Positions 1 through 45,262 of a stretch of DNA of 64,000 nucleotides are shown here, one piece after another. The notes beneath the pieces are model-generated. The model was not told where the DNA came from. It ran no database searches and worked only from the letters and a program-made list of their open reading frames with translations. The translations under genes were made by a program, and so were the position numbers. The stretch is from contig OX424557.1 in the NCBI GenBank assembly GCA_949152475.1, positions 25,047,462-25,111,461 on the forward strand, given 5' to 3'. Position 1 is the stretch's first letter, and each line of letters opens with the position of its first letter. The stretch comes from Terebella lapidaria. Taxonomy: Eukaryota; Annelida; Polychaeta; Terebellida; Terebellidae.

Positions 1-3000
1 TCTGATTGCCATACCCCTTCTAAATGACATGGTTCAAATTTCATGAGCCCACAATGATTCAAACAGATGTTATTACCGGAAACGTGTTTTTCTGGGATTT
101 CGATGACCTTGACCTTGACCTTTGACCTTTGCACTTAAATTCGTAGAAGTCAATGCTTTCAAAGTGCATATCAAATTTCAAAGGATTCCATTCACTATTG
201 ACGGTGTTATGGCCCTTTGAAATTTCGGATTTTTGACGTTTATGACGTCATTATGACGTCAGTTTATGTCGCAACGCCAAAAATGAGAAATCACTGGAAT
301 CAGGGACTCAAGACCTTTCCAACAATGTACTACTCGATATAGTGCGCTGACCTTCGTACTTGACCTTGATATTCACCTCATGGCATACTTCTCAAGGTCA
401 AGGTCAAATGTCAAGGTCATGGTCACAGAAGACAGAACTCGAGTATATCTACAATATGAACTTGATTTGAAGTCTCTACGATGATTAGAACTGGAATAAT
501 GAACACTTATGTGTTTTCGACGTTTTGCGTGACCTTGACCTTGTTATTTGACCTTGAGCTTAACAAAGAACTAGCGACCTTTCTTTTTCAGCCCAGAAAC
601 TTTCTACCAGATTTCATGAATTTCCAATGAGAACTGTGGCCTGTAGAGCGCACACAAACAAACAAACAAACAAACAAACAAACATACAAACAAACGGAAC
701 CGATCAACATACTTGACAAAATCTTTGATTTCGTCAAGTAATAATATCCGGTGCATATATACAAGCTATTGGGCCTTAGGCAATGCCCTACATGTACTAT
801 AAACCTGTAACAGTGCTCACAATGCTCACAAACCCGGTGCTCACAAACCCCTGTTCGTCATGCCCAAAAGTTGTGATATAAAGTGGCCTGTCGCTTGACC
901 CAGACTGTATTTAGACATGAGTTTTAGACTTTATCATACCAATTGGACACCTCTGAGTCAAAAAACAAAAGAAATGTTGTTTGAGATGTGCACTTGGATA
1001 CATATATGATATACTGTACTACTTCGCAACCGAGTGTGTATATTTAGAAGGGGACATGTCCACAGGGGGTAATCGTTTCTACAGCTTATTAGCATCTGAA
1101 CGGATTGAGAATCAAATTCACCCCACTGCTCTTTCTACTTTGATATCTCGGCGAGTTTTCAAGTTATTCCAAATGTGAAAAGTGGACCATAAACTAGAAA
1201 TAACACTGCAACTGACTGCAATTCTTTAAAATTAATGTTCAGTAAATGTGTGAAAATTGGAGCCATGAAAACATAAAAAATATCTGTAAAATCCCAAAAA
1301 CTCATGGGATTCTGATTAAGTTTTGTCAGATTATAGACAAAGTTCGAGGTCAATCATGGAATTGACATATTTATCTGATTGCCATACCCCTTCTAAATGA
1401 CATGGTTCAAATTTCATGAGCCCACAATGATTCAAACAGATGTTATTACCGGAAACGTGTTTTTCTGGGATTTCGATGACCTTGACCTTGACCTTTGACC
1501 TTTGCACTTAAATTCGTAGAAGTCAATGCTTTCAAAGTGCATATCAAATTTCAAAGGATTCCATTCACTATTGACGGTGTTATGGCCCTTTGAAATTTCG
1601 GATTTTTGACGTTTATGACGTCATTATGACGTCAGTTTATGTCGCAACGCCAAAAATGAGAAATCACTGGAATCAGGGACTCAAGACCTTTCCAACAATG
1701 TACTACTCGATATAGTGCGCTGACCTTCGTACTTGACCTTGATATTCACCTCATGGCATACTTCTCAAGGTCAAGGTCAAATGTCAAGGTCATGGTCACA
1801 GAAGACAGAACTCGAGTATATCTACAATATGAACTTGATTTGAAGTCTCTACGATGATTAGAACTGGAATAATGAACACTTATGTGTTTTCGACGTTTTG
1901 CGTGACCTTGACCTTGTTATTTGACCTTGAGCTTAACAAAGAACTAGCGACCTTTCTTTTTCAGCCCAGAAACTTTCTACCAGATTTCATGAATTTCCAA
2001 TGAGAACTGTGGCCTGTAGAGCGCACACAAACAAACAAACAAACAAACAAACAAACATACAAACAAACGGAACCGATCAACATACTTGACAAAATCTTTG
2101 ATTTCGTCAAGTAATAATATCCGGTGCATATATACAAGCTATTGGGCCTTAGGCAATGCCCTACATGTACTATAAACCTGTAACAGTGCTCACAATGCTC
2201 ACAAACCCGGTGCTCACAAACCCCTGTTCGTCATGCCCAAAAGTTGTGATATAAAGTGGCCTGTCGCTTGACCCAGACTGTATTTAGACATGAGTTTTAG
2301 ACTTTATCATACCAATTGGACACCTCTGAGTCAAAAAACAAAAGAAATGTTGTTTGAGATGTGCACTTGGATACATATATGATATACTGTACTACTTCGC
2401 AACCGAGTGTGTATATTTAGAAGGGGACATGTCCACAGGGGGTAATCGTTTCTACAGCTTATTAGCATCTGAACGGATTGAGAATCAAATTCACCCCACT
2501 GCTCTTTCTACTTTGATATCTCGGCGAGTTTTCAAGTTATTCCAAATGTGAAAAGTGGACCATAAACTAGAAATAACACTGCAACTGACTGCAATTCTTT
2601 AAAATTAATGTTCAGTAAATGTGTGAAAATTGGAGCCATGAAAACATAAAAAATATCTGTAAAATCCCAAAAACTCATGGGATTCTGATTAAGTTTTGTC
2701 AGATTATAGACAAAGTTCGAGGTCAATCATGGAATTGACATATTTATCTGATTGCCATACCCCTTCTAAATGACATGGTTCAAATTTCATGAGCCCACAA
2801 TGATTCAAACAGATGTTATTACCGGAAACGTGTTTTTCTGGGATTTCGATGACCTTGACCTTGACCTTTGACCTTTGCACTTAAATTCGTAGAAGTCAAT
2901 GCTTTCAAAGTGCATATCAAATTTCAAAAGATTCCATTCACTATTGACGGTGTTATGGCCCTTTGAAATTTCGGATTTTTGACGTTTATGACGTCATTAT

Positions 3001-3456
3001 GACGTCAGTTTATGTCGCAACGCCAAAAATGAGAAATCACTGGAATCAGGGACTCAAGACCTTTCCAACAATGTACTACTCGATATAGTGCGCTGACCTT
3101 CGTACTTGACCTTGATATTCACCTCATGGCATACTTCTCAAGGTCAAGGTCAAATGTCAAGGTCATGGTCACAGAAGACAGAACTCGAGTATATCTACAA
3201 TATGAACTTGATTTGAAGTCTCTACGATGATTAGAACTGGAATAATGAACACTTATGTGTTTTCGACGTTTTGCGTGACCTTGACCTTGTTATTTGACCT
3301 TGAGCTTAACAAAGAACTAGCGACCTTTCTATTTCAGCCCAGAAACTTTCTACCAGATTTCATGAATTTCCAATGAGAACTGTGGCCTGTAGAGCGCACA
3401 CAAACAAACAAACAAACAAACAAACAAACATACAAACAAACGGAACCGATCAACAT

Positions 3457-3536
3457 ACTTGACAAAATCTTTGATTTCGTCAAGTAACAAACGGAACCGA
3501 TCAACATACTTGACAAAATCTTTGATTTCGTCAAGT
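3457..3536. repeat. Duplicated terminal hairpin module
   Basis: In this unit the terminal module (ACGGAACCGATCAACAT followed by the hairpin) occurs twice, at 3457-3485 and 3508-3536, offset by exactly 51 bp. This explains why this unit is 51 bp longer than its neighbours. The same kind of doubling occurs at 8514-8591 and 12680-12832, so the hairpin module can expand independently of the rest of the unit. Confidence 0.85.
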
Positions 3537-6500
3537 AATAATATCCGGTGCATATAAACAAGCTATTGGGCCTTAGGCAATGCCCTACATGTACTATGAA
3601 CCTGTAACAGTGCTCACAATGCTCACGAACCCGGTGCTCACAAACCCCTGTTCGTCATGCCCAAAATTTCTGATATAAAGTGGCCTGTCGCTTGACCCAG
3701 ACTGTATTTAGACATGAGTTTTAGACTTTATCATACCAGTTGGACACCTCTGAGTCAAAAAACAAAAGAAATGTTGTTTGGGATGTGCACTTGGATACAT
3801 ATATGATATACTGTACTACTTCGCAACCGAGTGTGTATATTTAGAAGGGGACATGTCCACAGGGGGTAATCGTTTCTACAGCTTATTAGCATCTGAACGG
3901 ATTGAGAATCAAATTCACCCCACTGCTCTTTCTCCTTCGATATCTCAGCGAGTTTTCAAGTTATTCCAAATGTGAAAAGTGGACCATAAACTAGAAATAA
4001 CACTGCAACTGACCGCAAGGAAATGCTTTAAATTAATGTTCAGTAAATTTGTGAAAATTAGAGCCATGAGAACATAAAAAATATTGGTAAAACCCAAAAT
4101 CCTCATAGGATTCTGATTAAGTTTTGTCAGATTATAGACAAAGTTCGAGGTCAATCATGGAATTGACATATTTGTCTGATTGCCATACCCCTTCTAAATG
4201 ACATGGTTCAAATTTCATGAGCCCACGATGATTCAAACGGATTTTATTACAGAAAACGTGTTTTTCTGGGATTTCGATGACCTTGACCTTGACCTTTGAC
4301 CTTTGTACTTGAGTTCGTAGAGGTCAATGCTGTCAAAATGCATATCAAATTTCAAGAGATTCCATACACTATTGACGATGTTATGACCCTTTGAAATTTC
4401 GGATTTTTGACGTTTATGACGTCATTGTGACGTCAGTTTACGTCGCAGCGCCAAAAATGAGATATCACTGGAATCAGGGGCTCAAGACCTTTCCAACAAT
4501 ATACTACTCGATATGCTGCGCCGACCTTCGTACTTGACCTTGACTTCGACCTCAGGCGAACTTCTCAAGGTCAAGGTCAAAGGTCAAGGTCAAGGTCACG
4601 GAAGATAGAACTCGAGTATATCTACAATATGCACTTGATTTGAAGTCTCTACGACGATTAGAACTGGAGTTATGAGCACTTATGTGTTTTCGTCGTTTTG
4701 CGTGACCTTGACCTTGTTATTTGACCTTGAGCTTAACAAAGAGTCTGGGACCTTCCTATTTCAGCCTAGAAAATTTCTACTAAATTTCATGAATTTCCAA
4801 TGAGAACTGTGGCCTGTAGAGGGCACACAAACAAACAAACAAACAAACAAACATACAAACAAACGGAACCGATCAACATACTTGACAAAATCTTTGATTT
4901 CGTCAAGTAATAATATCCGGTGCATATAAACAAGCTATTGGGCCTTAGGCAATGCCCTACATGTACTATGAACCTGTAACAGTGCTCACAATGCTCACGA
5001 ACCCGGTGCTCACAAACCCCTGTTCGTCATGCCCAAAATTTCTGATATAAAGTGGCCTGTCGCTTGACCCAGACTGTATTTAGACATGAGTTTTAGACTT
5101 TATCATACCAGTTGGACACCTCTGAGTCAAAAAACAAAAGAAATGTTGTTTGGGATGTGCACTTGGATACATATATGATATACTGTACTACTTCGCAACC
5201 GAGTGTGTATATTTAGAAGGGGACATGTCCACAGGGGGTAATCGTTTCTACAGCTTATTAGCATCTGAACGGATTGAGAATCAAATTCACCCCACTGCTC
5301 TTTCTCCTTCGATATCTCAGCGAGTTTTCAAGTTATTCCAAATGTGAAAAGTGGACCATAAACTAGAAATAACACTGCAACTGACCGCAAGGAAATGCTT
5401 TAAATTAATGTTCAGTAAATTTGTGAAAATTAGAGCCATGAGAACATAAAAAATATTGGTAAAACCCAAAATCCTCATAGGATTCTGATTAAGTTTTGTC
5501 AGATTATAGACAAAGTTCGAGGTCAATCATGGAATTGACATATTTGTCTGATTGCCATACCCCTTCTAAATGACATGGTTCAAATTTCATGAGCCCACGA
5601 TGATTCAAACGGATTTTATTACAGAAAACGTGTTTTTCTGGGATTTCGATGACCTTGACCTTGACCTTTGACCTTTGTACTTGAGTTCGTAGAGGTCAAT
5701 GCTGTCAAAATGCATATCAAATTTCAAGAGATTCCATACACTATTGACGATGTTATGACCCTTTGAAATTTCGGATTTTTGACGTTTATGACGTCATTGT
5801 GACGTCAGTTTACGTCGCAGCGCCAAAAATGAGATATCACTGGAATCAGGGGCTCAAGACCTTTCCAACAATATACTACTCGATATGCTGCGCCGACCTT
5901 CGTACTTGACCTTGACTTCGACCTCAGGCGAACTTCTCAAGGTCAAGGTCAAAGGTCAAGGTCAAGGTCACGGAAGATAGAACTCGAGTATATCTACAAT
6001 ATGCACTTGATTTGAAGTCTCTACGACGATTAGAACTGGAGTTATGAGCACTTATGTGTTTTCGTCGTTTTGCGTGACCTTGACCTTGTTATTTGACCTT
6101 GAGCTTAACAAAGAGTCTGGGACCTTCCTATTTCAGCCTAGAAAATTTCTACTAAATTTCATGAATTTCCAATGAGAACTGTGGCCTGTAGAGGGCACAC
6201 AAACAAACAAACAAACAAACAAACAAACATACAAAAAATCGGCCATAGGCCAACACTTGACGAAAATCTACACATTTGTTTACATTCAAAACATTTACTC
6301 ATTATTTACACATTGATGGCATCCCCTGACAACATATAGCATTGGAAACTGAACCATTTGAAACATCTAGTTTGCGTATGTATCAACATAATATATTACC
6401 TCTAACCATGCTAACGGCACAAAATTTTGATGATGCCACTACTAAAAAACCTAAAATATATCAAAATTACAAAAATCCAAAAACAAATATCGATAGCCTA

Positions 6501-7169
6501 AAAATGAGCGAATAACAAACACCAAATATTCCCGCACAAATATGAAATTACATTGACAACAAGTAAACAAAACAAATAGAGAGGCTTAGACATGTGGCGA
6601 TTGCACAGCCCTAAAATATGACCTAATCATTGCTTGTCTTCTTTTTATCAATGTTTTTATATTAACAAACAGTTGTAATTAGGTCATATTTTAAGGCTAT
6701 GAAGAATGGAGTTAACACAAACGCGTTATGACAAAAACATGCATTGTTCGATCATAATGAAACCAATGAGACCCTGTAAAATGACACGATACAGTGTTTA
6801 ATCTGGACTTACCAGACCCCCAATCCCACATGCATCATATGAAGCAGACATATCATCTGGTACACGCCTTTTGTCATGCATTTGTTAGCAGCTAATACCA
6901 CAGATCATTCACAGTTGTGGCCGTAATGCTGAATTTAAAGCGGCTTGTAACTTCAAATATAAAGAACAAACTAGATTTTGATGATACCACTGGAAAGCTC
7001 GATAAAATAGTTCGTCGCTATTCGTGGAACAGTGTTTTTTCCTTCAAAGGTGATCATTATAATTAGAAACAATAGAATTACATAAAGCATGGCAGGTTTG
7101 GGATGCTTACAAGACCACTCAGAAACAGAAAAAGTCATTTGGAATTGAATTTTAGAAGAAAAAAAAATC

Positions 7170-7245
7170 GTCAACAGTGAGAATCGAACCACTGACCCCT
7201 CGCACAAACACGTAACGCCTCTACTGACTGCGCCATTCTGTCCAT
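7170..7245 (-). repeat. tRNA-derived (SINE-like) segment
   Basis: The minus strand contains a plausible pol III A box (TGGCGCAGTCAGTAGA) and, about 35 bases on, a B box (GGTTCGATTCT) at normal tRNA spacing. Acceptor-stem pairing is poor, so it is not a functional tRNA. It is better read as a tRNA pseudogene or the head of a tRNA-derived SINE. No poly-A or LINE-like tail was identified. Confidence 0.55.
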
Positions 7246-7348
7246 TGAAACTCAAAACGTGTAAAGTATAGTGCGTAGGAGAGACTTCGCTCAGGATAAA
7301 CACTGAATTTTGTCATGGCTGTACATTGGACTGGCAGCGTGCAGAATT

Positions 7349-8335
7349 CGATCGGGAAAACTCATGACCTTGAGTTCTACAACTTCACAATCTTATTCTG
7401 CGTGATCAGGCACAACTCCTGAGTAAAATCCGGCAATATATATTGGAACCTGGCTCTATAATGTGGTTTTGAATATTGTGAGACAGGAAAAACCTAAATT
7501 CATGACCCCCAAATTTTCGACCTGGACCGAAAATCCAGAGTTTTGGTCATACGACCATCGGACATGTATCATATGATGCGGATTTGACCATAGAGAAATA
7601 CAAAAATAATCAGAAAAAATAATCATGATTACAAGCGGAGTTATCACGATTTTTCAATTTTGACCTTTACTATGACCTTAACTGTAATTCTTGACCTTGA
7701 GCCCTATAACTTCACAGTCATGTTCTGCGTGAGGAGGCACAACTCTTGAGTAAAAATCAAAAACATATATTGGATCCTGGCTCTACAATAGGGTTTTGAA
7801 AATTGAGACAAGCAAGACCTAAGTTCATGACCCCCAAATTTTCGACCTGGACCGAAAATCGAGAGTTTAGGTCATACGACCATCAGACATGCATCATGTG
7901 ATGCGGAATTGACCATAGAAAAATATAAAAATACACAGAAAAAATAATCTTGATTAGAAGCGGAGTTATCACGATTTTTCGATTTTGACCTTTACTATGA
8001 CCTTAACTCTAATCCTTGACCCTGAGCTCTGAAACTTCAGGATCTTGTTCTGCGTGATAAGGCACAACTCCTGAGTGAAAATCAGCAACATATATTGGAA
8101 CCTGGCTCTATAATATGGTTTTGAATATTGTGAGACATAAAAAACCTAAATTCTTGACCCCCAAATTTTCGACCTGGACCGGAAATCGGGAGTTTTGGTC
8201 GTACGACCATCGGGCATGCATCATGTGATGCAGAATTGACCATAGAAAAATATAAAAATAATTAGAAAAAATAATCTTAATTACAAGCGAAGTTATCGCA
8301 ATTTTTCGATTTTGACCTTTTGCTTGACCTTGACC
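7349..8335 (+). repeat. Three-copy ~326-bp internal tandem repeat
   Basis: Three diverged copies start with a CTTGAGNNCTNNAACTTCA motif near 7370, 7697 and 8022. All share TTCTGCGTGA, ACCTGGCTCTA, CCCCCAAATTTTCGACCTGG and a GATGCGGATTTGACCATAG-like block. The spacing is 327 and 325 bp. The copies are clearly diverged, so the expansion is old compared with the near-identical 1,372-bp units around it. Confidence 0.85.
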
Positions 8336-8513
8336 TCAGTTTTTGACCTTGACCTCCGAAAAGTTTACCACTTGGTCCGAAATTGATTGTCCACCTTCTG
8401 GTGAAGTTTCATGACGATACGACCAAAATTGTGACCTGTAGAGTGCACACATACAAACAAACAAACAAACAAACAGACAAACAGACAAACAGACAAACTC
8501 AACTGACCAACAT

Positions 8514-8591
8514 ACTTGACGAAATTTAATTTCGTCAAGTAACAAACGGAACCGATCAACATACTTGACAAAATCTTTGATTTCGTCAAGT
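8514..8591. repeat. Two adjacent terminal hairpins with different arms
   Basis: The first hairpin, 8514-8540, is ACTTGACGAAAT/ATTTCGTCAAGT with a very short loop and closes the inserted element. The second, 8563-8591, is the standard array version with AAAAT opposite ATTTC. They are joined by AACAAACGGAACCGATCAACAT. This is a head-to-tail junction between two different repeat types. Confidence 0.8.
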
Positions 8592-11500
8592 AATAATATC
8601 CGGTGCATATAAACAAGCTATTGGGCCTTAGGCAATGCCCTACATGTACTATGAACCTGTAACAGTGCTCACAATGCTCACGAACCCGGTGCTCACAAAC
8701 CCCTGTTCGTCATGCCCAAAATTTCTGATATAAAGTGGCCTGTCGCTTGACCCAGACTGTATTTAGACATGAGTTTTAGACTTTATCATACCAGTTGGAC
8801 ACCTCTGAGTCAAAAAACAAAAGAAATGTTGTTTGGGATGTGCACTTGGATACATATATGATATACTGTACTACTTCGCAACCGAGTGTGTATATTTAGA
8901 AGGGGACATGTCCACAGGGGGTAATCGTTTCTACAGCTTATTAGCATCTGAACGGATTGAGAATCAAATTCACCCCACTGCTCTTTCTCCTTCGATATCT
9001 CAGCGAGTTTTCAAGTTATTCCAAATGTGAAAAGTGGACCATAAACTAGAAATAACACTGCAACTGACCGCAAGGAAATGCTTTAAATTAATGTTCAGTA
9101 AATTTGTGAAAATTAGAGCCATGAGAACATAAAAAATATTGGTAAAACCCAAAATCCTCATAGGATTCTGATTAAGTTTTGTCAGATTATAGACAAAGTT
9201 CGAGGTCAATCATGGAATTGACATATTTGTCTGATTGCCATACCCCTTCTAAATGACATGGTTCAAATTTCATGAGCCCACGATGATTCAAACGGATTTT
9301 ATTACAGAAAACGTGTTTTTCTGGGATTTCGATGACCTTGACCTTGACCTTTGACCTTTGTACTTGAGTTCGTAGAGGTCAATGCTGTCAAAATGCATAT
9401 CAAATTTCAAGAGATTCCATACACTATTGACGATGTTATGACCCTTTGAAATTTCGGATTTTTGACGTTTATGACGTCATTGTGACGTCAGTTTACGTCG
9501 CAGCGCCAAAAATGAGATATCACTGGAATCAGGGGCTCAAGACCTTTCCAACAATATACTACTCGATATGCTGCGCCGACCTTCGTACTTGACCTTGACT
9601 TCGACCTCAGGCGAACTTCTCAAGGTCAAGGTCAAAGGTCAAGGTCAAGGTCACGGAAGATAGAACTCGAGTATATCTACAATATGCACTTGATTTGAAG
9701 TCTCTACGACGATTAGAACTGGAGTTATGAGCACTTATGTGTTTTCGTCGTTTTGCGTGACCTTGACCTTGTTATTTGACCTTGAGCTTAACAAAGAGTC
9801 TGGGACCTTCCTATTTCAGCCTAGAAAATTTCTACTAAATTTCATGAATTTCCAATGAGAACTGTGGCCTGTAGAGGGCACACAAACAAACAAACAAACA
9901 AACAAACATACAAACAAACGGAACCGATCAACATACTTGACAAAATCTTTGATTTCGTCAAGTAATAATATCCGGTGCATATAAACAAGCTATTGGGCCT
10001 TAGGCAATGCCCTACATGTACTATGAACCTGTAACAGTGCTCACAATGCTCACGAACCCGGTGCTCACAAACCCCTGTTCGTCATGCCCAAAATTTCTGA
10101 TATAAAGTGGCCTGTCGCTTGACCCAGACTGTATTTAGACATGAGTTTTAGACTTTATCATACCAGTTGGACACCTCTGAGTCAAAAAACAAAAGAAATG
10201 TTGTTTGGGATGTGCACTTGGATACATATATGATATACTGTACTACTTCGCAACCGAGTGTGTATATTTAGAAGGGGACATGTCCACAGGGGGTAATCGT
10301 TTCTACAGCTTATTAGCATCTGAACGGATTGAGAATCAAATTCACCCCACTGCTCTTTCTCCTTCGATATCTCAGCGAGTTTTCAAGTTATTCCAAATGT
10401 GAAAAGTGGACCATAAACTAGAAATAACACTGCAACTGACCGCAAGGAAATGCTTTAAATTAATGTTCAGTAAATTTGTGAAAATTAGAGCCATGAGAAC
10501 ATAAAAAATATTGGTAAAACCCAAAATCCTCATAGGATTCTGATTAAGTTTTGTCAGATTATAGACAAAGTTCGAGGTCAATCATGGAATTGACATATTT
10601 GTCTGATTGCCATACCCCTTCTAAATGACATGGTTCAAATTTCATGAGCCCACGATGATTCAAACGGATTTTATTACAGAAAACGTGTTTTTCTGGGATT
10701 TCGATGACCTTGACCTTGACCTTTGACCTTTGTACTTGAGTTCGTAGAGGTCAATGCTGTCAAAATGCATATCAAATTTCAAGAGATTCCATACACTATT
10801 GACGATGTTATGACCCTTTGAAATTTCGGATTTTTGACGTTTATGACGTCATTGTGACGTCAGTTTACGTCGCAGCGCCAAAAATGAGATATCACTGGAA
10901 TCAGGGGCTCAAGACCTTTCCAACAATATACTACTCGATATGCTGCGCCGACCTTCGTACTTGACCTTGACTTCGACCTCAGGCGAACTTCTCAAGGTCA
11001 AGGTCAAAGGTCAAGGTCAAGGTCACGGAAGATAGAACTCGAGTATATCTACAATATGCACTTGATTTGAAGTCTCTACGACGATTAGAACTGGAGTTAT
11101 GAGCACTTATGTGTTTTCGTCGTTTTGCGTGACCTTGACCTTGTTATTTGACCTTGAGCTTAACAAAGAGTCTGGGACCTTCCTATTTCAGCCTAGAAAA
11201 TTTCTACTAAATTTCATGAATTTCCAATGAGAACTGTGGCCTGTAGAGGGCACACAAACAAACAAACAAACAAACAAACATACAAACAAACGGAACCGAT
11301 CAACATACTTGACAAAATCTTTGATTTCGTCAAGTAATAATATCCGGTGCATATAAACAAGCTATTGGGCCTTAGGCAATGCCCTACATGTACTATGAAC
11401 CTGTAACAGTGCTCACAATGCTCACGAACCCGGTGCTCACAAACCCCTGTTCGTCATGCCCAAAATTTCTGATATAAAGTGGCCTGTCGCTTGACCCAGA

Positions 11501-12679
11501 CTGTATTTAGACATGAGTTTTAGACTTTATCATACCAATTGGACACCTCTGAGTCAAAAAACAAAAGAAATGTTGTTTGAGATGTGCACTTGGATACATA
11601 TATGATATACTGTACTACTTCGCAACCGAGTGTGTATATTTAGAAGGGGACATGTCCACAGGGGGTAATCGTTTCTACAGCTTATTAGCATCTGAACGGA
11701 TTGAGAATCAAATTCACCCCACTGCTCTTTCTACTTTGATATCTCGGCGAGTTTTCAAGTTATTCCAAATGTGAAAAGTGGACCATAAACTAGAAATAAC
11801 ACTGCAACTGACTGCAATTCTTTAAAATTAATGTTCAGTAAATGTGTGAAAATTGGAGCCATGAAAACATAAAAAATATCTGTAAAATCCCAAAAACTCA
11901 TGGGATTCTGATTAAGTTTTGTCAGATTATAGACAAAGTTCGAGGTCAATCATGGAATTGACATATTTATCTGATTGCCATACCCCTTCTAAATGACATG
12001 GTTCAAATTTCATGAGCCCACAATGATTCAAACAGATGTTATTACCGGAAACGTGTTTTTCTGGGATTTCGATGACCTTGACCTTGACCTTTGACCTTTG
12101 CACTTAAATTCGTAGAAGTCAATGCTTTCAAAGTGCATATCAAATTTCAAAGGATTCCATTCACTATTGACGGTGTTATGGCCCTTTGAAATTTCGGATT
12201 TTTGACGTTTATGACGTCATTATGACGTCAGTTTATGTCGCAACGCCAAAAATGAGAAATCACTGGAATCAGGGACTCAAGACCTTTCCAACAATGTACT
12301 ACTCGATATAGTGCGCTGACCTTCGTACTTGACCTTGATATTCACCTCATGGCATACTTCTCAAGGTCAAGGTCAAATGTCAAGGTCATGGTCACAGAAG
12401 ACAGAACTCGAGTATATCTACAATATGAACTTGATTTGAAGTCTCTACGATGATTAGAACTGGAATAATGAACACTTATGTGTTTTCGACGTTTTGCGTG
12501 ACCTTGACCTTGTTATTTGACCTTGAGCTTAACAAAGAACTAGCGACCTTTCTTTTTCAGCCCAGAAACTTTCTACCAGATTTCATGAATTTCCAATGAG
12601 AACTGTGGCCTGTAGAGCGCACACAAACAAACAAACAAACAAACAAACAAACATACAAACAAACGGAACCGATCAACAT

Positions 12680-12832
12680 ACTTGACAAAATCTTTGATTT
12701 CGTCAAGTAACAAACAAACAGACAGACAAACGCGACTGACCAACATACTTGACGAAATTTACATTTCGTCAAGTAAAAAACATACATCCAAACCAACCAA
12801 CATACTTGGCAAAATCGAAGATTTCGCCAAGT
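12680..12832. repeat. Cluster of three terminal hairpins with covarying arms
   Basis: Three hairpins follow one another at 12680-12708 (ACTTGAC/GTCAAGT), 12747-12774 (ACTTGACGAAAT/ATTTCGTCAAGT) and 12804-12832 (ACTTGGC/GCCAAGT), separated by A/C-rich spacers. The sixth stem position is A-T in the first two and G-C in the third, so pairing is kept although the sequence differs. This cluster ends the satellite array. Confidence 0.85.
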
Positions 12833-17262: not shown

Positions 17263-17352
17263 GAGTGGCCACATTGTGAATGAGAAACAGAAGACTCCCG
17301 AATGAAAGAAAAACCTTGGTTTGATGGACCGCTGGTCCGATGCTGTATTTTT

Positions 17353-19386: not shown

Positions 19387-19469
19387 AGCGCCTCCTGTCG
19401 TCATAATGTTGCAGTAGTAATTTTGTCCACAACAATTACTACTGTATCATTATGACGACAGGCGGCGCT
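19387..19469. repeat. 83-bp snap-back palindrome (MITE-like)
   Basis: The arms AGCGCCTCCTGTCGTCATAA... (19387-19422) and their reverse complement (19434-19469, ending AGGCGGCGCT) match at 33 of 36 positions, around a loop of about 11 bases. One arm abuts the repeat at 19480-19836, and a single related arm closes the repeat at 16851-17262. The palindrome is therefore probably the terminal structure of that family. Confidence 0.8.
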
Positions 19470-36100: not shown

Positions 36101-38036
36101 ACCCTTGGGCTGCCTTGTTGATTACGTAATTCGCATTGAGTTCCAAGCCCGAGGCTCCCCACATGCACATACACTTCTCTGGATCAAAGACGCACCAAAG
36201 CTGAATGTGCAATCTGATCAGCAGGTGTGTGAGTTCATAGACAAGCATGTGTCCTGCAGTCTTCCCGAGGATGATGATTATTTGAAAGGTTTGGTGCAGC
36301 GTCTGCAGACCCACAGTCATTCCTCATACTGTCGCAAAAAAGGCACTTGCAGATTCAGCTATCCACGTCCTCCTAACACAAGTACAATCATCGCTAGAGA
36401 ACCTGATGGGGTAGATGCCGAGACGGTAAAGCATGATGCAACGGAAGTGCTGAAGTCCGTGAAGAACGTCTTGTTAGACAAGGATGTATCCGATGTTGGA
36501 TCAATGAAGGACGTGTTGTCAGAAGCTGATGTTGATGCAAATGACTATGCTGGAGCAGTGGGCATATCACAGAAGGGGACGAATGTCGTGCTGAACAGGG
36601 AGCCATGTGAAATGAATGTGAATCCATATAATCCCATCCTACTGAAGGCATGGCAGGCAAATATGGACGTACAGTACGTAGTTGATGCATATGCCTGTAT
36701 AATGTATGTGGCAGCATATATGACAAAAAACGAGAGTGGGTTAGGAGAAATATTGAAACAAACTTGCAGAGAATACAGAGATTCTGACATCAAATCAGTG
36801 CTAAGACGCTTGGGTTCAGTGTTTCTAAACCACCGAGAAGTAAGCGCACAAGAAGCGGCCTTCAGAATCTTGTCTATACCAATGAAGAAACTGAGCAGAA
36901 AAGTTTACTTTGTTAACACTGACTCTAAACCTGAACGAGCTCATGTTCTGAAGACCAAGAATCAGCTAGACAAATTAGACAATGAAGATGAAGATATTTT
37001 TCAGAAGAATATCATTATGCGATACGCCGCGCGTCCTGATTGTCTGGAAGGTATGTGCTTGGCATCATTTGCTGCAAACTACACAGTCAGTTACACAGAG
37101 CGGGAAGACACTGATGACAGTGTGCCACATATACTGGAAAATGAAGGTGACTCTGATGATTGCAGAGAGACACTTCCTAAACGGATTACACTGAAAAACA
37201 ACCTCGGAAAAATGCACAAACGAAGAGTTGAAGCAGTCATACGGTTCCGCCGGTTTAATTCCGCTTCAGACACTAGCAACTTCTACAGAGCAAAATTGAT
37301 GTTGTACATGCCATGGAGGAATGAAGACACAGACTTGATTGGCCAGTACCCAGATTTCAGTTCACACTACCATGCTGTTATTGAAGAGGTCAATTCAAAT
37401 GAAAATCGTTTCACTGAGAATTTACAACTCATAGATCAGGCAATACATGAACATGCTGAACACGGGCCACCCGAACACATGTGGGCTAACATTGCTCCTG
37501 GCACAGAACACTCAAATGAACAGGACAGAAATGCAGACATTGAAGTTGAGAGGGACATAGAACAGGAAGACCTTGATGCCAATGCTGCCATGTTGCAGGC
37601 ACCCAATGATGTAGGCTGTGATTTGAGTCTCAGGTATAGGGCAGAAGCTCAGAAAGAAATACTCAGTCCAACGGAGTATAGAACAATGGTACGTAACTTG
37701 AATGAGCGACAAAGGGAGATAGTTTTCTACCATCGGAAATGGTGCAAAGATGCTGTGGTGGCCATACGAAACAACGAACCCATTATTCCATACCGGATCT
37801 TTCTTAGTGGTCCTGGAGGTGTTGGAAAATCATTCGTAATCAAATTGATTCAAACAGATACTAGAAAGCTTCTAGCACAGTCAAGAGTCATGAAACCAAC
37901 TGATCTCATTGTGTTGCTCACAGGTCCCACAGGTGTTGCAAGTTTTAGCATAGGTGGCATGACAATCCACTCAGCTTTATTGTTAAGAGTTGGAAACTAT
38001 GGAACAGGTGGCGAGCCACTTGCTTCGAAAAGTTAA
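33147..38036 (+). CDS. Helentron Rep/helicase polyprotein, first part
   Basis: The first ATG in frame is 33147; the open frame itself reaches nine bases further upstream. Counting from 33138, residues 61-152 are four exact 23-residue repeats starting RL, matching the STPR repeat pattern. Around 185-245 are two CxxC pairs (CSCNRLL, CRTCNRLL). Next come a DUF6570-like block (LIALRIPFMKMVGLP), an OTU domain with DGNCLFHS (from residue 522) and SHYVVMEP, the Helitron N-terminal region (FPDMYPDG), the Rep two-His motif SPHAHTLLW (~1007) and the two-Tyr motif YVAAYMTK (~1190). A helicase Walker A GPGGVGKS follows at 37810-37833. The frame ends at 38036 where one base appears missing from an A run. 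Expected role: nicking, strand transfer and unwinding in rolling-circle transposition. Confidence 0.85.
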   Translation: MAKRKKKSDAQKRKDAKLRMQNLRNNWSEEQRESNIDRDVKRRGKKRENESTESRSDRLAHARVKMAKLRNTETHEQKCNRLKKMSGKMKQLRADETPEKKSSRLLKVKEKIHQLRSAESLEERVKRLENKKKRITQLRLSENPSERKSRLKKARVYKFTKKRTYVPSSSEVVSKFLTRVKDSCGYICCSCNRLLYKTSVLKLKESAYTKVPADLVKNVLNSEYRKQSADGEEYICRTCNRLLKRGVVPAQSKANGMTLAEQPQELKELNAMELRLIALRIPFMKMVGLPRGKQQAIHGPAVNVPAKLDFVCSMLPRLPSQTQILALKFKRNVKYKSHYMFDYVRPHKVIAALQYLKENNPHYADIQINKNWVDDAEGDDVEMWQAMTQANEHEQDGKEESEAQVTSCDSARDLELCSKTDVEMQSETSNARLTTYSNDDGEPSNDTTGGEYESKTAKQKSLTRKRKKSTSVHKSCKQIKKDTRETLYEVVCPSEGSDIPILNRVAKTLDMNVIDVPGDGNCLFHSVCHHMRRLDIATLTPATLRKHLADFMSGNPEYYRDFVCNLVTSADSCNADTEQPSDIDRAIAEVGDTETRKEILWINYLEKLESGEQWGEHIALQALADMFALNVTVHKSPDSVSHNVPSRFGSRYKFHLGLLGQSHYVVMEPISVVTRDSAETESFAECGDDCDEQSNTESSARYSEESKNICEQESLNDAMNEDEKSLEEDDKALEQLSQIRGLPFETCLMKENTDISHLIVSVAPGEKERPRPLLSDPNFEELSFPDMYPDGKFALTSDRKVQLTPRKFFNQRLLDCDGRFAKSTEYLLSAQYATENKQVQSDINHFVFRRSVGQHFQGRRLNVGMVNSVEKLNALIRDDQAYKILKNIRGSPAYFQVLFYDVLAMIRQLGIPTWFLTVSAADMQWPDLIQTIARQYGTKLTDEDVKNLSFQERSMWLRSNPVTAARHFHYRLELLFSDVIKSTAKPLGCLVDYVIRIEFQARGSPHAHTLLWIKDAPKLNVQSDQQVCEFIDKHVSCSLPEDDDYLKGLVQRLQTHSHSSYCRKKGTCRFSYPRPPNTSTIIAREPDGVDAETVKHDATEVLKSVKNVLLDKDVSDVGSMKDVLSEADVDANDYAGAVGISQKGTNVVLNREPCEMNVNPYNPILLKAWQANMDVQYVVDAYACIMYVAAYMTKNESGLGEILKQTCREYRDSDIKSVLRRLGSVFLNHREVSAQEAAFRILSIPMKKLSRKVYFVNTDSKPERAHVLKTKNQLDKLDNEDEDIFQKNIIMRYAARPDCLEGMCLASFAANYTVSYTEREDTDDSVPHILENEGDSDDCRETLPKRITLKNNLGKMHKRRVEAVIRFRRFNSASDTSNFYRAKLMLYMPWRNEDTDLIGQYPDFSSHYHAVIEEVNSNENRFTENLQLIDQAIHEHAEHGPPEHMWANIAPGTEHSNEQDRNADIEVERDIEQEDLDANAAMLQAPNDVGCDLSLRYRAEAQKEILSPTEYRTMVRNLNERQREIVFYHRKWCKDAVVAIRNNEPIIPYRIFLSGPGGVGKSFVIKLIQTDTRKLLAQSRVMKPTDLIVLLTGPTGVASFSIGGMTIHSALLLRVGNYGTGGEPLASKS

Positions 38037-39850
38037 ACACCTTGCGAACTACCCTAGAACAATTACGGGTGTTAGTCATTGATGAAATATCCATGGTAGG
38101 GTCGGATATGTTGCTTCATATTCACAAACGACTTTGCGATATTAAGGGTGCTGGTGATGATGTGCTATTTGGCAATGTGTGTATCCTGGCAGTGGGTGAC
38201 TTGTATCAGCTTCCTCCAGTTCGGCAATCAAACATTTTTGATCCAGTACACGACCCTCTTGCCAATCTGGCTGGTTCTTTGTGGAAGGACAATTTTGTTC
38301 TGCATGAACTTGATGAGATAGTACGACAGAATGATGAGGAATTTGCGAGTATGCTTTGCCGTATACGGGTTGGAAAGATAACAGCCAGTGACGTGGATGT
38401 CTTGCGATCTAGGGAAATCACTTCTGATGATCCAGCCTATCCTGACGAAGCACTTCACGTATATGCTTTCAACTATGATGTTGATAGGCGCAACGATGCA
38501 AAACTAACCCAGCTTGCACCAGATGCTGACCAACGTATAAAGATTGTAGCCTGCGATGACAAAACCGATAGCACTGGACTGGTTGATGTTACAGGAATGA
38601 CAACACAGAAACGTTCCGAGACAGCTGGTATGCACAATGTCTTGGTTCTTGCTGTTGGAGCTCGTGTGATGTTGACATGTAATGTGGACACCAGTGACGG
38701 TCTTGTGAATGGTGTGCTTGGAACAGTTGTAGCGATAATGAAAAATGATGCAAACAAAGTAAAAACTGTTCTTGTCAAATTTGATGATGACAGAGTAGGT
38801 AAAAAAGCTCGGGTCTCTAGTCAATGGCAAAATGAGTATAAAGATGCCACTCCGATAGTCAGACACGAAGCCATGTATGACAAACGCGGTAAAAAAGGAG
38901 CAAAGATTTCCAGGAGACAATTCCCCTTGACATTGGCATGGGCAGTCACGATCCATAAATGTCAGGGACTGACTTTGGATCAAATTGTTGTAAGCATGAA
39001 GGGAGCACGAAAGTTTGGCAACGGACAAGCATATGTAGCATTCAGTCGAGTAAAAAGGCTCGAAGGCCTGTATATCACGGAGTTCGATCCGGCAGGCATC
39101 AAATGTAACAAAAAAATTGCACAGGAAATGGAAGACTTGGCCTGCCATACTTTACCCAGTATACATCAACCAAAATTTATTGTTGAAAAATCATCTCAGT
39201 CGGTTACAGTTGGTCATTTGAACGTGCATTATTTCCTGGAGAAAATGCGAGATTTGAACAGCAAGGGTGAAACAGGAACATACGCAAGTGTGGATGTCAT
39301 GTGTTTCACTGAAACCTACTTGCAACCCCAGCATAACATTGATGACTTCTTACAAAGACTAAACCTTGTAGCGTTCCGTGTTGACACGGGCAGAACAAAC
39401 AAACATGGCTTGATGATATGTTGTTCATCATGGTTACATCCGAAGGAACTGCCACTTATGCGGGTTAAGGGTCTGGAATGCTTAGTCGTTATAACAGAAG
39501 CAGGTAGACGCAGACTATGTGTAGTGCTTGTGTATAGGCCACCAAGTATGCCAGCGGAAACGTTCACAAGGAAACTTGAAACATTACTTGGTTTGCTAGC
39601 ACTTGATGTTCCCACAGTAGTGTTAGGAGATTTCAACGAAGACCTCTTACAAGACCCTCAATCCCGCATACAATCTATGATGTCGCAATATGACTTCAAA
39701 CAGTATGTAACTGTTCCAACTACTGATAGTGGATCTTTGCTTGATCACATCTACTATAACAAACCGGACCAAGAAACTGAACATAATGTATTTGTCGATG
39801 TAAGAGATATCTATTACTCAGATCATGATGCAGTATTTTTGACAGTGTAA
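38033..39850 (+). CDS. Helentron helicase C-terminal part and EEP endonuclease
   Basis: Continues the preceding protein in the -1 frame. Motifs in order: Walker B VLVIDEISMVG, LYQLPPVRQ, EIVRQNDEEFA, WAVTIHKCQGLTLD (PIF1/RecD motif V) and YVAFSRVKRLEGLYI (motif VI). From ~39205 to the stop is an endonuclease/exonuclease/phosphatase domain with HLNVHYF, FTETYL, GDFNEDL, LLDHIYY and the terminal SDHDAV. These are the expected metal-binding and catalytic residues, so the domain looks intact. The frame could be joined to the upstream one by frameshifting, but a single-base indel in GAAAAG (mutation or sequencing error) is simpler. Confidence 0.85.
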   Translation, partial: LNTLRTTLEQLRVLVIDEISMVGSDMLLHIHKRLCDIKGAGDDVLFGNVCILAVGDLYQLPPVRQSNIFDPVHDPLANLAGSLWKDNFVLHELDEIVRQNDEEFASMLCRIRVGKITASDVDVLRSREITSDDPAYPDEALHVYAFNYDVDRRNDAKLTQLAPDADQRIKIVACDDKTDSTGLVDVTGMTTQKRSETAGMHNVLVLAVGARVMLTCNVDTSDGLVNGVLGTVVAIMKNDANKVKTVLVKFDDDRVGKKARVSSQWQNEYKDATPIVRHEAMYDKRGKKGAKISRRQFPLTLAWAVTIHKCQGLTLDQIVVSMKGARKFGNGQAYVAFSRVKRLEGLYITEFDPAGIKCNKKIAQEMEDLACHTLPSIHQPKFIVEKSSQSVTVGHLNVHYFLEKMRDLNSKGETGTYASVDVMCFTETYLQPQHNIDDFLQRLNLVAFRVDTGRTNKHGLMICCSSWLHPKELPLMRVKGLECLVVITEAGRRRLCVVLVYRPPSMPAETFTRKLETLLGLLALDVPTVVLGDFNEDLLQDPQSRIQSMMSQYDFKQYVTVPTTDSGSLLDHIYYNKPDQETEHNVFVDVRDIYYSDHDAVFLTV

Positions 39851-40711
39851 TCAAGTACACACGGTGTGCACGTAGCATATGAAATATAAGTCCGGATGTG
39901 CTTCCTTTCTATCTGTTCCTCATCAACCGGTTTTGCCAAAAGCAGCCAGGGAAATAACATAACACAAAAAACACAGATGGTGAAGCATGGGTCCTGCGAT
40001 GCAGTCGAAATTCAACTGACATCCGACATAGTTTCCAAACAGTCTATTATCAATTCTGGAGCTATTTTACATTGTAGTGATGTGAAAACTAATGCAGAGC
40101 CATGGCAAAATGAATAACAAGACATTCCATCAAATATTTAGCTGAAATTTCCGTGTGTATTTGAGATTGAATATCATATAATTTTATTTGTTTTATCAAA
40201 ATTTTCTGCATTTTTACTCTCCAGCTGTCGATACAAACTTTTTAGCAAGAATTTTTATATGTGGCATTTTTCACAAACCAGTCTAAAATCGCAACCTTTG
40301 TTGTGCAGTACAAGTATCTACCACCTCACAAAATGTGAATCTGGAATCCCATAATATACACATAGCATTCTGCAGGTGTGTCAAAGTAAGTTTATCAAAC
40401 AGGTCAATAATTCAAAATTCGTTACATTGATTGTGTATTTATATTCGCAGTAGGCTGAGCTATTTCCGTTTGCGAGGCTTCTGAAGTGACGGGCATTGAG
40501 TGATTCCACGGTGCACATACGTTGCGCCCTATGGTGTGGGCTTCGCCCAAAACCGGTATACTGTGAAATGTTTAAACAGTCAAAAGTTTACAATGTGTGA
40601 TACAGTTTGGATCGCAAATGTGGTCGATCTATCGATCTGCCTAGCCCATTGTATTTTTGAACGAGTTGTTGTGATAAAATCTAGGCTAAGAGCAACATAT
40701 CTTTGACATTT
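39851..40711. other. Non-coding right flank of the Helentron
   Basis: The 73-residue open frame at 39896 has no known domain. The rest is AT-rich with no recognisable gene. It probably belongs to the Helentron's 3' non-coding part, because the hairpin minisatellite follows. Confidence 0.4.
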
Positions 40712-40912
40712 ATGACAGATCATCACCACTAGGTCAGTGGACCTGGTGAAAATCGTCGACAATGAAGACAAATCCACACCACTAGGTCAGTGGACCTGGT
40801 GAGAAACGTCGATATTGAAGACAGATCATCGCCACTAGGTCAGTGGACCTGGTGAGAAACGTCGATATTGAAGACAGATCATCGCCACTAGGTCAGTGGA
40901 CCTGGTGAGAAT
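40712..40912. repeat. Four-copy 53-bp hairpin minisatellite
   Basis: The core CACTAGGTCAGTGGACCTGG recurs with starts at 40726, 40779, 40832 and 40885, exactly 53 bp apart, joined by GAGAAACGTCGATATTGAAG-type spacers. Each core folds as CACTAGGTC / GACCTGGTG with a four-base loop. It lies 0.9 kb past the Helentron stop codon. Helentrons are known to carry minisatellites and hairpins in their non-coding termini, so it likely belongs to that element. Confidence 0.88.
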
Positions 40913-41390
40913 CTGTACAGGCGGAAGCGACCATGGCCAGAGAAAGGTAAGAAATCGTCGGAGGATAATTGGAGTGCATGCAATGAAATATACAGTCTAT
41001 TTTTATAGTACGTTGAAGATACAAATTACATAGTGATGTTCACACGAGAAATATCTGTGAATGCTGAAATTTATTCCTTTTCTCTAGGGAATTAAGGCCA
41101 ATGTGGACCAGGCAATATGAACGCAGATGCACCATTTCACATAAGGTAAATAATCTGGAAAACATAAAAATGCTGGTTATCATTATATCACTGCATGAAA
41201 ATGAAGGTAACAGTATAATATGTCGAGTGCATTCGTGGATATTTGTAATGTAACCCTTTATAAATCTCGACAGGCGCTCTTCTGTCTGCAATTTCTACGA
41301 CGGGCATAGAAGTCATCATACTTGGATAGGCGGCCACAGGCTACTTTCTTGAATGGGGCGTGATCCTATAGAATAGCAGTCAGCCATCGA

Positions 41391-41720
41391 CAACACAACA
41401 TTGCCAACGTGTCGCTGTAATGCTACTCTTGATATGATCATTACCAAGAACCCTAACAATTGTTCCTGTGTCACAAGAAGATTCAGCAGGCCGATATTTT
41501 ATTACTCATCAAAATGTATAGCTTGAAAATATATGAGTTTATAAAGTAAAACACACAACACAACATTGCCAACATGTCGCTGTAATGTTACTCTTGATAT
41601 GATCATCATCACCAAGAACCCTTACAATAGTTCCTGTGTCACGAGAAGATTCAGCAGGCCGATATTTGATTACTCATGTAAATGTATAGCTTGAAAATAT
41701 ATGAGTTTATAAAGTAAAAC
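41391..41720 (+). repeat. 165-bp tandem duplication
   Basis: CAACACAACATTGCCAAC starts both 41391 and 41556, and both copies run to TTTATAAAGTAAAAC. They differ at a few positions and by a short CAT insertion. The flanking stretches 40913-41390 and 41721-42000 show no gene. Confidence 0.88.
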
Positions 41721-41999
41721 ATGTGCAATTCAGTAGTAAATATATGCGTTCACCCATATTTAATTGTGTGGTCTTTGTGTTATGAACATTTCAGTAGTCA
41801 AATATGTATATTGTACTCGTTTTTGTATGGCTTCATCCGTACCATACTCTATCTCATTAATGTCCACACAAACAGATTACATTAAACATAATATGGTATG
41901 AAAGCTCTGTTATATGCACTTTTGACTGAGAGCCTATATGAATGGATTATGACATGGGATGGTCCATACAAACATATTACACTTATCACACATATTATA

Positions 42000-44985
42000 T
42001 TTACTGAGAGAGATATTTTTTCTATCTGAAAGGGGTGATAATTAACCTTACGACGGTCATGGTTGGACACCTTTTCCTGTGAAGCATACACGTCCGACAA
42101 ATATTGTCCAACAAAAGTAATGCCGTCCGACAAACAACTGAGCTCATACTCCGTTGTAAGGTCAATTTTGGAAAGTATCACTTTTTGGGCTTGACACACA
42201 CCAAAAACGATATAATAACTGAAATTTGGGAATTCTGAATCCATTTGCTTGAAAAATAATTCTACTTCCGGTTTGATGTAGTTTGACACCACTGGTGTAA
42301 TCTGATTGAATTGAATTGAATTCATTAATTTTAATTTAAAAAAAAAAAATTTTGAACAGGTGTAATCTGATACCAAACCACATCTAGTGTATTGCCAATT
42401 AACCCTCTGGGTCTGAAAATAATGTCCTTTTTGCTTCACGATCAATATTTAATGAGATGTCAAGGGCTTTTTTTTATGGAAAGTGGACGATATCAAGGGA
42501 AAGTATAATTTTTTGGCCTTGAAACACACCAAAGTGACCCAATAACTGATCTTTGGGCATCCCGAGACCATTTGCTTGAAAAATAATTCTACTTCCGGTT
42601 TGGTGTGATTTGATACCACTGGTGTAATCTGATATCAAACCACACCTATTATATTGCAAATTTGTCCCCCCGGGTCTGAAAATAACGTCCTTTTTGCTCT
42701 ATGGTCAATATTTAATGAGATATGGAGGTTTTCATGGAAAGTGATTGATAATAAGGGAAGGTATCAATTTTTGGCCTTGAAACACACTAAAACGGCCTGA
42801 TAACTGATTCTTGGGCATCCTGAGACCCTTTGCTTGAAAAATAATTCTACTTCCGGTTTGGTGTAATTTGACACGACAGGTGTAATCTGATACCAACCCA
42901 CACATAGTATATTGCCAATTAGCCCTCCGGGTCTGAAAAGAACGTCCTTTTGCTCTACAATCAATATTTAATGAGATATGGACTTTTTTAAGGAAAGTGA
43001 GTGATAATAGGGGAAAGTATCGTTTTTTGGCCTTGAAACACACCAAAACGGCCCAACAACTGATCCTTGGGCATCCTGAGACCATTTTCTGAAGAAATAG
43101 TTCTACTCCCGGTTTGGTGTAATTTGACACCACAGGTGTAATCTGATACCAAACCACACCTACTATATTGCCAATTAGCCCTCTGGGTCCAAAAATAACG
43201 TCCTTTTTGCTCTACGATCAATATTTAATGAGATATGGAGGTTTTTATGGAAAGTGGGTGATGAGGTTTTTATGGAAAGTGGGTGATAATCGGAGAAAGT
43301 ATCAATTCTCAGAATTGAAAAACACCAAAATGGCCTAATCACTGATCTTTGGGCATCCTGATTCCATTTCCTAGAAAAATTATTCTACGTCCAGTTCGGT
43401 GTGAGATGACGTCATCATAGTGAAATACATGCTAATTTGCATAACATATGATTTTTTTATATTCTACCTATGCTTGGGCATCCTGAGACCCTTTGCTTGA
43501 AAAATAATTCTACTTCCTGTTTGGTGTAGTTTGACACCACAGGTGTAATCTGATCCCAAACCACACCTATTATATTGCAAATTAGCCCTCTGGGTCTGAA
43601 ATTAATGACTTTTTGCTCTACGATCAATGTTTAATGAGATATGGAGGTTTTTATGGAAAGTGGGTGATAATAGGGGAAAGTATCAATTTTGGCCCTTGAG
43701 AGACACTAAAATGGCCTAATAACTGATCCTTGGGCATCTTGATCCCATTTGGTTGAAAAATAATTCTACTTCCGGTTTGGTGTAATTTGACACCACAGGT
43801 GTAATCTGATACCAAACCACACCTACTATATTGCCAATTAGCCCTCTGGGTCCAAAAATAACGTCCTTTTTGCTCTACGATCAATATTTAATGAGATATG
43901 GAGGTTTTTATGGAAAGTGGGTGATGAGGTTTTTATGGAAAGTGGGTGATAATCGGAGAAAGTATCAATTCTCAGAATTGAAAAACACCAAAATGGCCTA
44001 ATCACTGATCTTTGGGCATCCTGATTCCATTTCCTAGAAAAATAATTCTACGTCCAGTTCGGTGTGAGATGACGTCATCATAGTGAAATACATGCTAATT
44101 TGCATAACATATGATTTTTTTATATTCTACCTATGCTTGGGCATCCTGAGACCCTTTGCTTGAAAAATAATTCTACTTCCGGTTTGGTGTAGTTTGACAC
44201 CACAGGTGTAATCTGATCCCAAACCACACCTATTATATTGCAAATTAGCCCTCTGGGTCTGAAATTAATGACTTTTTGCTCTACGATCAATGTTTAATGA
44301 GATATGGAGGTTTTTATGGAAAGTGGGTGATAATAGGGGAAAGTATCAATTTTGGCCCTTGAGAGACACTAAAATGGCCTAATAACTGATCCTTGGGCAT
44401 CTTGATCCCATTTGGTTGAAAAATAATTCTACTTCCGGTTTGGTGTAATTTGACACCACAGGTGTAATCTGATACCAAACTACACTTATCTTAATTACAA
44501 TTAGCCCTTTGGGTCTGAAAATAACGTCCTTTTTGCTCTACGATCAATATTTACTGAGATATGGAGGTTTTTATGGAAAAGTGGGTGATAATAGGGGAAA
44601 GTATCAATTTTTGGCCTTCAAACACCGAAATGGCCTAATAACTGATCCTTGGGCATCCTGAGTCCAATTGCTTGAAAAATAATTCTACTTCCGGTTTGGT
44701 GTGAGATGACGTCATCATAGTGAAATACATGCTAATTTGCATAATCTATGATTTTTATATATTGTACCTATGTGACGGATCCAAAAAAAACGTTATTTTT
44801 GCTCTATCTGTAATAGTTTTTGAGATATGGACGTTTTAACTTTATCATTGGCTTGAATGGCAAACAATTTTCAAAACGTTCCCGTGACCTTGGCCTTTGA
44901 CCTACGACCTTGAAAAACAATGGGGGATCTAACAATTTCGATGTACATGTGTGGTCAAAATTTCACAAAAATCAGATGAAAATTG
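42000..44985 (-). repeat. ~255-bp tandem repeat array with a 663-bp higher-order duplication
   Basis: Roughly ten diverged units share ATTCTACTTCCGGTTTGGTG, ACACCACAGGTGTAATCTGA, CCAATTAGCCCTCTGGGTC and TTTTTGCTCTACGATCAATA. Between ~43.11 and ~44.47 kb a 663-bp block of several units occurs twice almost unchanged. Open frames on the minus strand (for example 42732-43157 and 41882-42445) repeat with the units and have no known domain. The array ends in GTGCCCTCTAGAGGGCGAAC, then ACAAAC repeats and hairpins, as in the 1-12.7 kb family. Confidence 0.88.
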
Positions 44986-45042
44986 TGCCCTCTAGAGGGC
45001 GAACAGACAAACAAACAAACACACATCCAAACCGATCAACAT

Positions 45043-45262
45043 ACTTGGCAAAATCGAAGATTTCGCCAAGTAACAAACACATCCATCCACAAACCGATCA
45101 ACATACTTGCCGAAATCTTTAGATTCCGGCAAGTAACAAATCCACAAACCAACCAACCAACATACTTGCCGAAATCGGAGATTCCGGCAAGTAACAAACT
45201 TACAAAATTACATACATCCAAACCAACCAACATACTTGGCAAAATCGAAGATTTCGCCAAGT
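45043..45262. repeat. Cluster of four covarying terminal hairpins
   Basis: The hairpins are at 45043-45071 (ACTTGGC/GCCAAGT), 45105-45134 and 45164-45192 (both ACTTGCCG/CGGCAAGT) and 45234-45262 (ACTTGGC/GCCAAGT), each preceded by an A/C-rich spacer ending CAACAT or CAACAT-like text. The arm base at position six is G or C here and A in the array at 1-12.7 kb, always with its complement opposite. Confidence 0.88.

Follow-up and report, generated by a model that had tools for sequence, protein, structure and literature searches.

Helentrons and the related HINE and DINE-1 elements, known from fly, mite and oyster, are placed in the Helitron2 group (PMC4067079, PMC7492417). In the sections of these papers drawn on here they have a Rep, a helicase and an endonuclease, sometimes with an OTU domain, and a subterminal inverted repeat (subTIR) of 11–15 nt, an inverted repeat, a short microsatellite, central tandem repeats, a palindrome at the opposite end and insertion at TT/AA. 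Rep, helicase and endonuclease together are treated, in the cited portions, as the hallmark of Helentrons (PMC4067079, PMC5148889). For oyster, the pages used describe element-specific changes in the subTIR and the inverted repeat (PMC7492417). The FoHeli elements of Fusarium oxysporum have multiple 5′ termini, asymmetric inverted repeats and, in some cases, reversed genes, and they appear in the cited part of that paper without an endonuclease (PMC5148889). Helraiser, a canonical Helitron1, is described in the relevant excerpt as having an SF1 helicase joined to its HUH Rep, a hairpin close to one terminus, and 5′-TC and CTRR-3′ ends (PMC4778049).

A set of hairpins in the polychaete Terebella lapidaria very probably represents the subTIR/inverted-repeat ends of Helentrons and non-autonomous HINEs, rolling-circle transposons moved by a Rep-helicase, with the two ends matched in most of the families examined. 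These elements share the structural Helentron and HINE features listed above, including element-specific changes in the repeats, and probably also insertion at TT/AA. They differ from the published accounts, as far as the cited sections go, in that the gene is on the other strand than usual, the gene-bearing element is ~31 kb long, and matched changes at one subTIR position could be counted across families of one genome. The FoHeli traits other than the missing endonuclease recur here, but the stacks of ends hold up to four or five hairpins of mixed families. The likeness to Helraiser extends to the Rep, the helicase and the hairpin; in contrast to it, the present elements are without 5′-TC/CTRR-3′ ends and one repeat is common to both ends. 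This is a known kind of element with newly found members, richly nested and unusually well displayed.

The DNA analysed, called the window here, is a stretch of 64,000 nucleotides (C3:25047462-25111461 of the 761.6-Mb assembly). A sequence-only reading had pointed to hairpins whose arms pair at position six as A-T, G-C or C-G, referred to below as the state of an end. All the hairpins it named are present: a pattern search for ACTTGNC..GNCAAGT gave 16 matches between 711 and 45262, with 0.07 expected from 100 shuffles, in the states A-T (11), G-C (3) and C-G (2). Since nine of the 11 A-T copies are the single hairpin of one tandem array or its stubs, and the other two belong to another family, the independent cases in the window are few. 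What had been taken for one module scattered over 45 kb is the product of nested and tandem insertion of several elements (Table 1). Both left ends that had been noticed exist, each 2 nt from the place first given (CACTTGAC at 6254, CACTTGCC at 12854), and a third, CTTGGCGAAAT at 14129, had been overlooked.

Table 1. Features of the window; positions count from its first letter, and states refer to position 6 of the hairpin stem.
Feature	Position	Strand	Basis or remark
Tandem array of ~1373-bp non-autonomous units, interrupted by element B	1..12708	-	
Array hairpins, A-T	711, 2084, 3457, 4880, 9935, 11307, 12680	-
Array end stubs with hairpins	3508, 8563	-
Element B with its two ends, each in A state, and ~2.9 copies of a 325-bp repeat	6234..8542	-
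Far end of B: palindrome GGCCATAGGCC and subterminal repeat ACTTGACGAAAATC	6241..6268	-	3′ by published layout
Hairpin end of B: 12-bp perfect stem, A-T; putative 5′ subTIR and inverted copy	8514..8540	-
Two stacked end stubs (hairpins 12747 A-T, 12804 G-C)	12709..12832	-
Element G (C state), first part, with subTIR ACTTGCCGGA of the far end at 12855 and palindrome at 12840-12850	12833..14112	-
Element H, ~31 kb, inserted in the microsatellite tail of element G; both ends in G state	14104..45073	-	left boundary ambiguous by ~10 nt
First open frame in H: DUF6570, OTU, Helitron_like_N (Rep), start of PIF1 helicase	33135..38033	+	Pfam
Second open frame in H: rest of PIF1 helicase, Exo_endo_phos endonuclease	37949..39847	+	Pfam
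Element G, remaining part; C-G hairpin 45105-45134	45074..45136	-
Two further stacked stubs (hairpins 45164 C-G, 45234 G-C)	45137..45262	-
G-C hairpins of the window	12804, 45043, 45234
C-G hairpins of the window	45105, 45164

Element B sits at CATACAAA^CAAACGG of an array unit, with a 2-nt ambiguity, and the other units provide the empty site. The joint is AA/TT, and at this one precise empty site the ambiguity leaves room for a 2-bp duplication. No far end of the tandem array itself was found within the window; for the family in which the array hairpin occurs at locus L003 (CGACCATAGGTCGTAAGCTTGAC), the nearest one listed is at C3:25032355, ~15 kb left of the window, and the array may start there. 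When the flanks of H are joined, element G is 89.9–94.9% identical to all five uninterrupted relatives compared, and variability of the microsatellite at the joint prevents the insertion site from being placed to the base. The far end of H is the third left end just mentioned, following the palindrome GCTGCAGTGCAGC, and its hairpin end occupies 45043-45071. Pairing of the left end at 12854 with the outermost hairpin at 45234 was considered and rejected, as that left end belongs to G, which ends at 45134. The elements behind both pairs of stacked stubs, at 12709..12832 and at 45137..45262, are taken to continue to the left of the window.

The sequence that follows 45262 was not recognised as Helentron. 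Further along the window lie a satellite-like array with a 147-bp unit in ~11 copies (53476-55113) and two opposite-strand open frames with Hsp20/alpha-crystallin domains, at 57795-59225 (-) and 59886-61202 (+), whose C-terminal ends coincide with the arms of a 90% inverted repeat (57792-58065 / 60932-61205). Inside H, direct repeats with an offset of 2492 bp, containing 134-bp repeats, occupy 25824-30078, and repeats with 256- and 663-bp spacing lie near its hairpin end (42144-44709).

The genes of H bear out the suggestion that the hairpins are terminal structures of HUH rolling-circle elements, as Rep, PIF1, OTU and Exo_endo_phos domains all lie within it. The Helitron_like_N match has an E-value of 6.6e-31, and the Rep part contains HAH at residue 1010 and Y..I.Y...Y..K in a two-tyrosine region near residue 1186, which we take to be the HUH and two-tyrosine motifs. 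PIF1 is matched in two frames, at 4.8e-5, which is below the curated cut-off, and at 7.6e-10, which is above it; the endonuclease match that follows the helicase is at 6.4e-10. Among solved structures, the only significant relative of the Rep part is Helraiser (7lcc, E 4.4e-8). The reading frame shifts within the helicase, at 37949-38036, and because of this break the copy may be inactive, spliced or misassembled. In viral contigs, a search with one hairpin pattern gave no relatives, and none was confirmed for the Rep domain.

On the minus strand, these elements begin with TT, ACTTGNCGAAATC, a complementary inverted repeat and a (GTTT)n/(GTCT)n tract. They finish with the repeat ACTTGNCG in inverted form, a palindrome (for example GGCCTATGGCC) and a T-rich terminus. 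The hairpin-end subTIR lies ~2 nt from the terminus, unlike the hairpin of Helraiser in the published excerpt (PMC4778049), and a 4-nt microsatellite is alongside. Elements B, G and H and their relatives thus have subterminal inverted repeats at both ends, an inverted repeat with a microsatellite at one and a palindrome at the other. The DINE-1/HINE layout, including that of oyster elements, is built of such parts in the sections cited (PMC4067079, PMC7492417). Since the ends fit this layout, the hairpin is most likely the 5′, or start-end, subTIR with its inverted copy, on the minus strand of the window. The Rep gene is on the plus strand, opposite to the usual orientation, and this weakens the assignment of 5′ and 3′; reversed genes are known, from the portions cited, in some Helentrons, a Helitron2 and FoHeli4/5 (PMC5148889, PMC4067079). 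The hairpin was also considered as a rolling-circle 3′ terminator. The gene strand points towards that reading, but we prefer the other, as subTIR, inverted repeat and microsatellite all belong to the 5′ end in the published layout. The canonical Helitron signature of 5′-TC, CTRR-3′ and A/T insertion is not seen: B starts TTACTTG.. and finishes ..GGCCGATTTT on the minus strand.

The window contains three elements with both ends, and in all three the ends agree in state (B A/A, G C/C, H G/G), as had been noticed for B. Agreement was then scored in nine family pairings, defined by the far-end palindrome, over 24 scanned stretches, namely the window, L035-L037 joined into one stretch of 29.5 kb, five other joins (L003, L004/L005, L012, L013, L014) and 17 single loci. 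Loci L001, L002, L016-L019 and L038-L050 lie outside this set, and L051 and L052 came later. Ten of the 24 stretches (L007, L008, L011, L012, L015, L020, L023, L025, L027, L028) gave no far end, and eight far-end candidates stand outside the pairings (window 32299 and 56206; L003 join 1512 and 1765; L014 join 1349 and 5525; L035-L037 join 8141 and 15048, with no hairpin before the next far end). Seven of the nine pairings agree, a number reached in 0.25% of shuffles. One discordant pairing, with two copies, joins a T far end to a G-C hairpin; the other joins an A far end to the hairpin ACTTGACCAAATTTCATTTGGCCAAGT, whose outer arm is of G type. The GCTCAAAGAGC pairing, one of the seven, is weak because five far ends precede its one hairpin.

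Pairing by coordinates on C1, using listings up to C1:38.5466 Mb, took 43 far ends, 42 of them from the GGCCATAGGCC listing and one from the CGACCATAGGTCG listing given below, and yielded 29 pairs, with 14 far ends left without a partner. Twenty-eight of the 29 agree, compared with a permutation mean of 14.8 and none of 20000 permutations as high. The better figure is 26 of 29, as ACTTGACCAAATTTCATTTGGCCAAGT, which falls outside the strict hairpin pattern described below, lies 49 bp nearer for two pairs scored as agreeing. The remaining discordant pair is 4.8 kb apart inside a dense cluster, and outside that one cluster 11 of 11 pairs agree. Far ends of single palindrome types behave similarly. 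Among 100 listed of at least 1319 matches for GGCCATAGGCC, counted by eye, 76 with a short linker are A, and of 24 with a long linker 23 are C and one is T; among 100 listed of 104 matches for CGACCATAGGTCG, 99 are A and one, with another linker, is G. The claim that left and right types go together therefore holds for the most part, by both the family and the coordinate pairings, and the pattern of repeats suggests a recognition code particular to each family.

In the whole assembly, a loose hairpin pattern has at least 7690 matches compared with 1026 for its reversal, and a strict pattern at least 2485 + 2511 = 4996 on both strands compared with none; these counts are lower bounds in which self-complementary hairpins are counted twice. 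The strict matches comprise at least 3412 A-T, 108 G-C and 1461 C-G, with T-A at 0. Position 6 is paired in 4981 and unpaired in 15, where independent arms would give ~2760 paired, but the matches are far from independent because copies are related by descent. Covariation was examined in 13 distinct arm pairs from 29 hairpins, chosen by eye out of the listings and not including all those listed. Pairing is seen at position 6 in 10 of the 13 (4.1 on average after shuffling; reached in 12 of 20000 shuffles), at position 8 in nine (6.4; 658 of 20000) and at position 9 in eight (6.8; 7637 of 20000). At position 8 the 13 are G-C (7), A.C (4), C-G (1) and A-T (1), and the non-pairing combinations at position 9 are A.C (4) and A.G (1). 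Compensation in the stem is clear at position 6, weak at 8 and absent at 9.

The proposal that arm changes preserve pairing is thus borne out at position 6, weakly at position 8 and not at position 9; at the latter two, A.C mismatches run through whole families. Mostly uncompensated changes, which the sequence-only reading had set against itself, are not what is found at position 6 and are found in part at 8 and 9. The states characterise families and have been passed on to many copies, so independent compensations are few; position 6 must have changed at least twice.

Recognition of the repeat by Rep could account for these observations. A repeat of 10–13 nt at the hairpin end recurs at the far end beside a different palindrome, so one Rep could recognise both. 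Families differ in the repeat (ACTTG-A/G/C-CG), and in most of them a change at one end recurs at the other and in the inner inverted copy, the pattern that reading by Rep would produce. We infer such recognition, the direction of transposition, and selection rather than shared descent behind the agreement of ends. At the mismatched positions 8 and 9, the far end matches the outer arm in four of five informative families (A, G, H and TAGTCGACTA); in the GCTCAAAGAGC family it matches the inner arm at position 8. Because these positions may mismatch while the far end copies the outer arm, we prefer reading of the repeat sequence by Rep to an account in which only the fold is selected, although both may act.

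There may instead be no current selection, the families being clonal and the states characters of their founders, or the arms having been evened out by copying from a folded strand; this is possible, although we think it on the unlikely side. The listed copies of a family do have one hairpin sequence, two changes at position 6 are enough for three states, and perfect palindromes occur alongside imperfect ones. Nevertheless, in several families (seven of nine) as many as three places must have changed together in the founder, and copying between arms cannot reach a far end 1.3 to 31 kb away.

Selection on the folded hairpin itself, with the far end agreeing only through a common ancestral inverted repeat, appears rather unlikely. 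It would explain the pairing of position 6 in nearly all strict matches, and as single-stranded DNA all four hairpin types tested fold better than all of 200 shuffles (z -3.8 to -7.2). The three far-end palindromes barely do better than shuffles, with 12, 20 and 70 of 200 as good (z -1.7, -1.5 and -0.3), a point that counts against our main reading. A precedent is the Helraiser hairpin, situated at the other kind of end, which serves as a termination signal in the part of the paper cited (PMC4778049). The A.C pairs of whole families and the far ends that follow the outer arm in four families and the inner in one speak against it. Of the original suggestion of selection on the fold or copying from a folded strand, the compensation at position 6 is upheld, but the fold is not all that is kept.

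The nesting of these elements is extensive. The window and the 29.5-kb stretch (C1:33.43-33.46 Mb) contain 35 hairpins, and behind 33 of them Helentron sequence continues: a stub of 21–46 nt and another hairpin in 17 cases, a far end in eight, and a tandem unit in eight, one of these identified only from its first bases. The listing for C1 below 38.55 Mb has 76 hairpin places, 29 of which lie within 120 bp of another. Two nested cases have an uninterrupted site for comparison, the 2.3-kb B in an array unit and the 31-kb gene-bearing H in the 1.3-kb G. New copies would insert at AA/TT steps, often in an A-rich tract (T-rich on the other strand) just inside another hairpin end, or alternatively directly at another element's terminus; several hairpin ends would therefore come to be stacked in a row. 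The stacked hairpins fit insertions 21–46 nt inside the hairpin end of another element, in the two cases with a comparison site and presumably in the other stacks. The multiple 5′ termini on one element in Fusarium are ascribed, in the section cited, to self-insertion (PMC5148889).

It is improbable that the stacks arose by local duplication of an end module of 50–70 bp. Some are exactly periodic (at 3435-3538, for instance, with 51 bp), but the stubs vary in length and differ in sequence, alternating in one stack, and two cases can be compared with an uninterrupted site. That the elements are cut-and-paste MITEs with hairpin-shaped terminal inverted repeats is scarcely credible, for although short inverted repeats are present at both ends, the ends are asymmetric, the one precise site has no target duplication beyond its 2-nt ambiguity, and H contains a Rep-helicase-endonuclease gene.

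Dense clusters of Helentron ends are found at C1:33.43-33.55, 38.54-38.63 and 46.37-47.42 Mb, C7:2.30-2.42 Mb and C15:15.45-15.66 Mb. The G-C listing suggested one cluster per chromosome, as a centromere mark would give, but this is unsupported by the listing of CGACCATAGGTCG far ends, which has several clusters on C4, C5, C6 and C14. At C1:20771361-20779173 (L015-L019) there is a tandem array of ~1.15–1.25 kb units with C-G hairpins mismatched at positions 8 and 9.

To our knowledge, recognition of the ends by a Helentron Rep has not been described at the level of single bases, and literature searches directed at structure and nesting brought up no such description. The thousands of end matches in three types, with nested empty-site controls, provide natural variants with which to test what base is read and if families stay separate. 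The window also shows how stacked start ends can arise. A more speculative and distinctly doubtful extension is that these Helentrons have radiated into recognition groups, marked by A, C or G at position 6 with linked changes at 8 and 9, which matched changes at three places, together with a corresponding Rep, would hold separate although each uses the start ends of the others as landing sites. If this is true, stacks combining start ends of different specificity would build up, and several Reps could then mobilise a single element.
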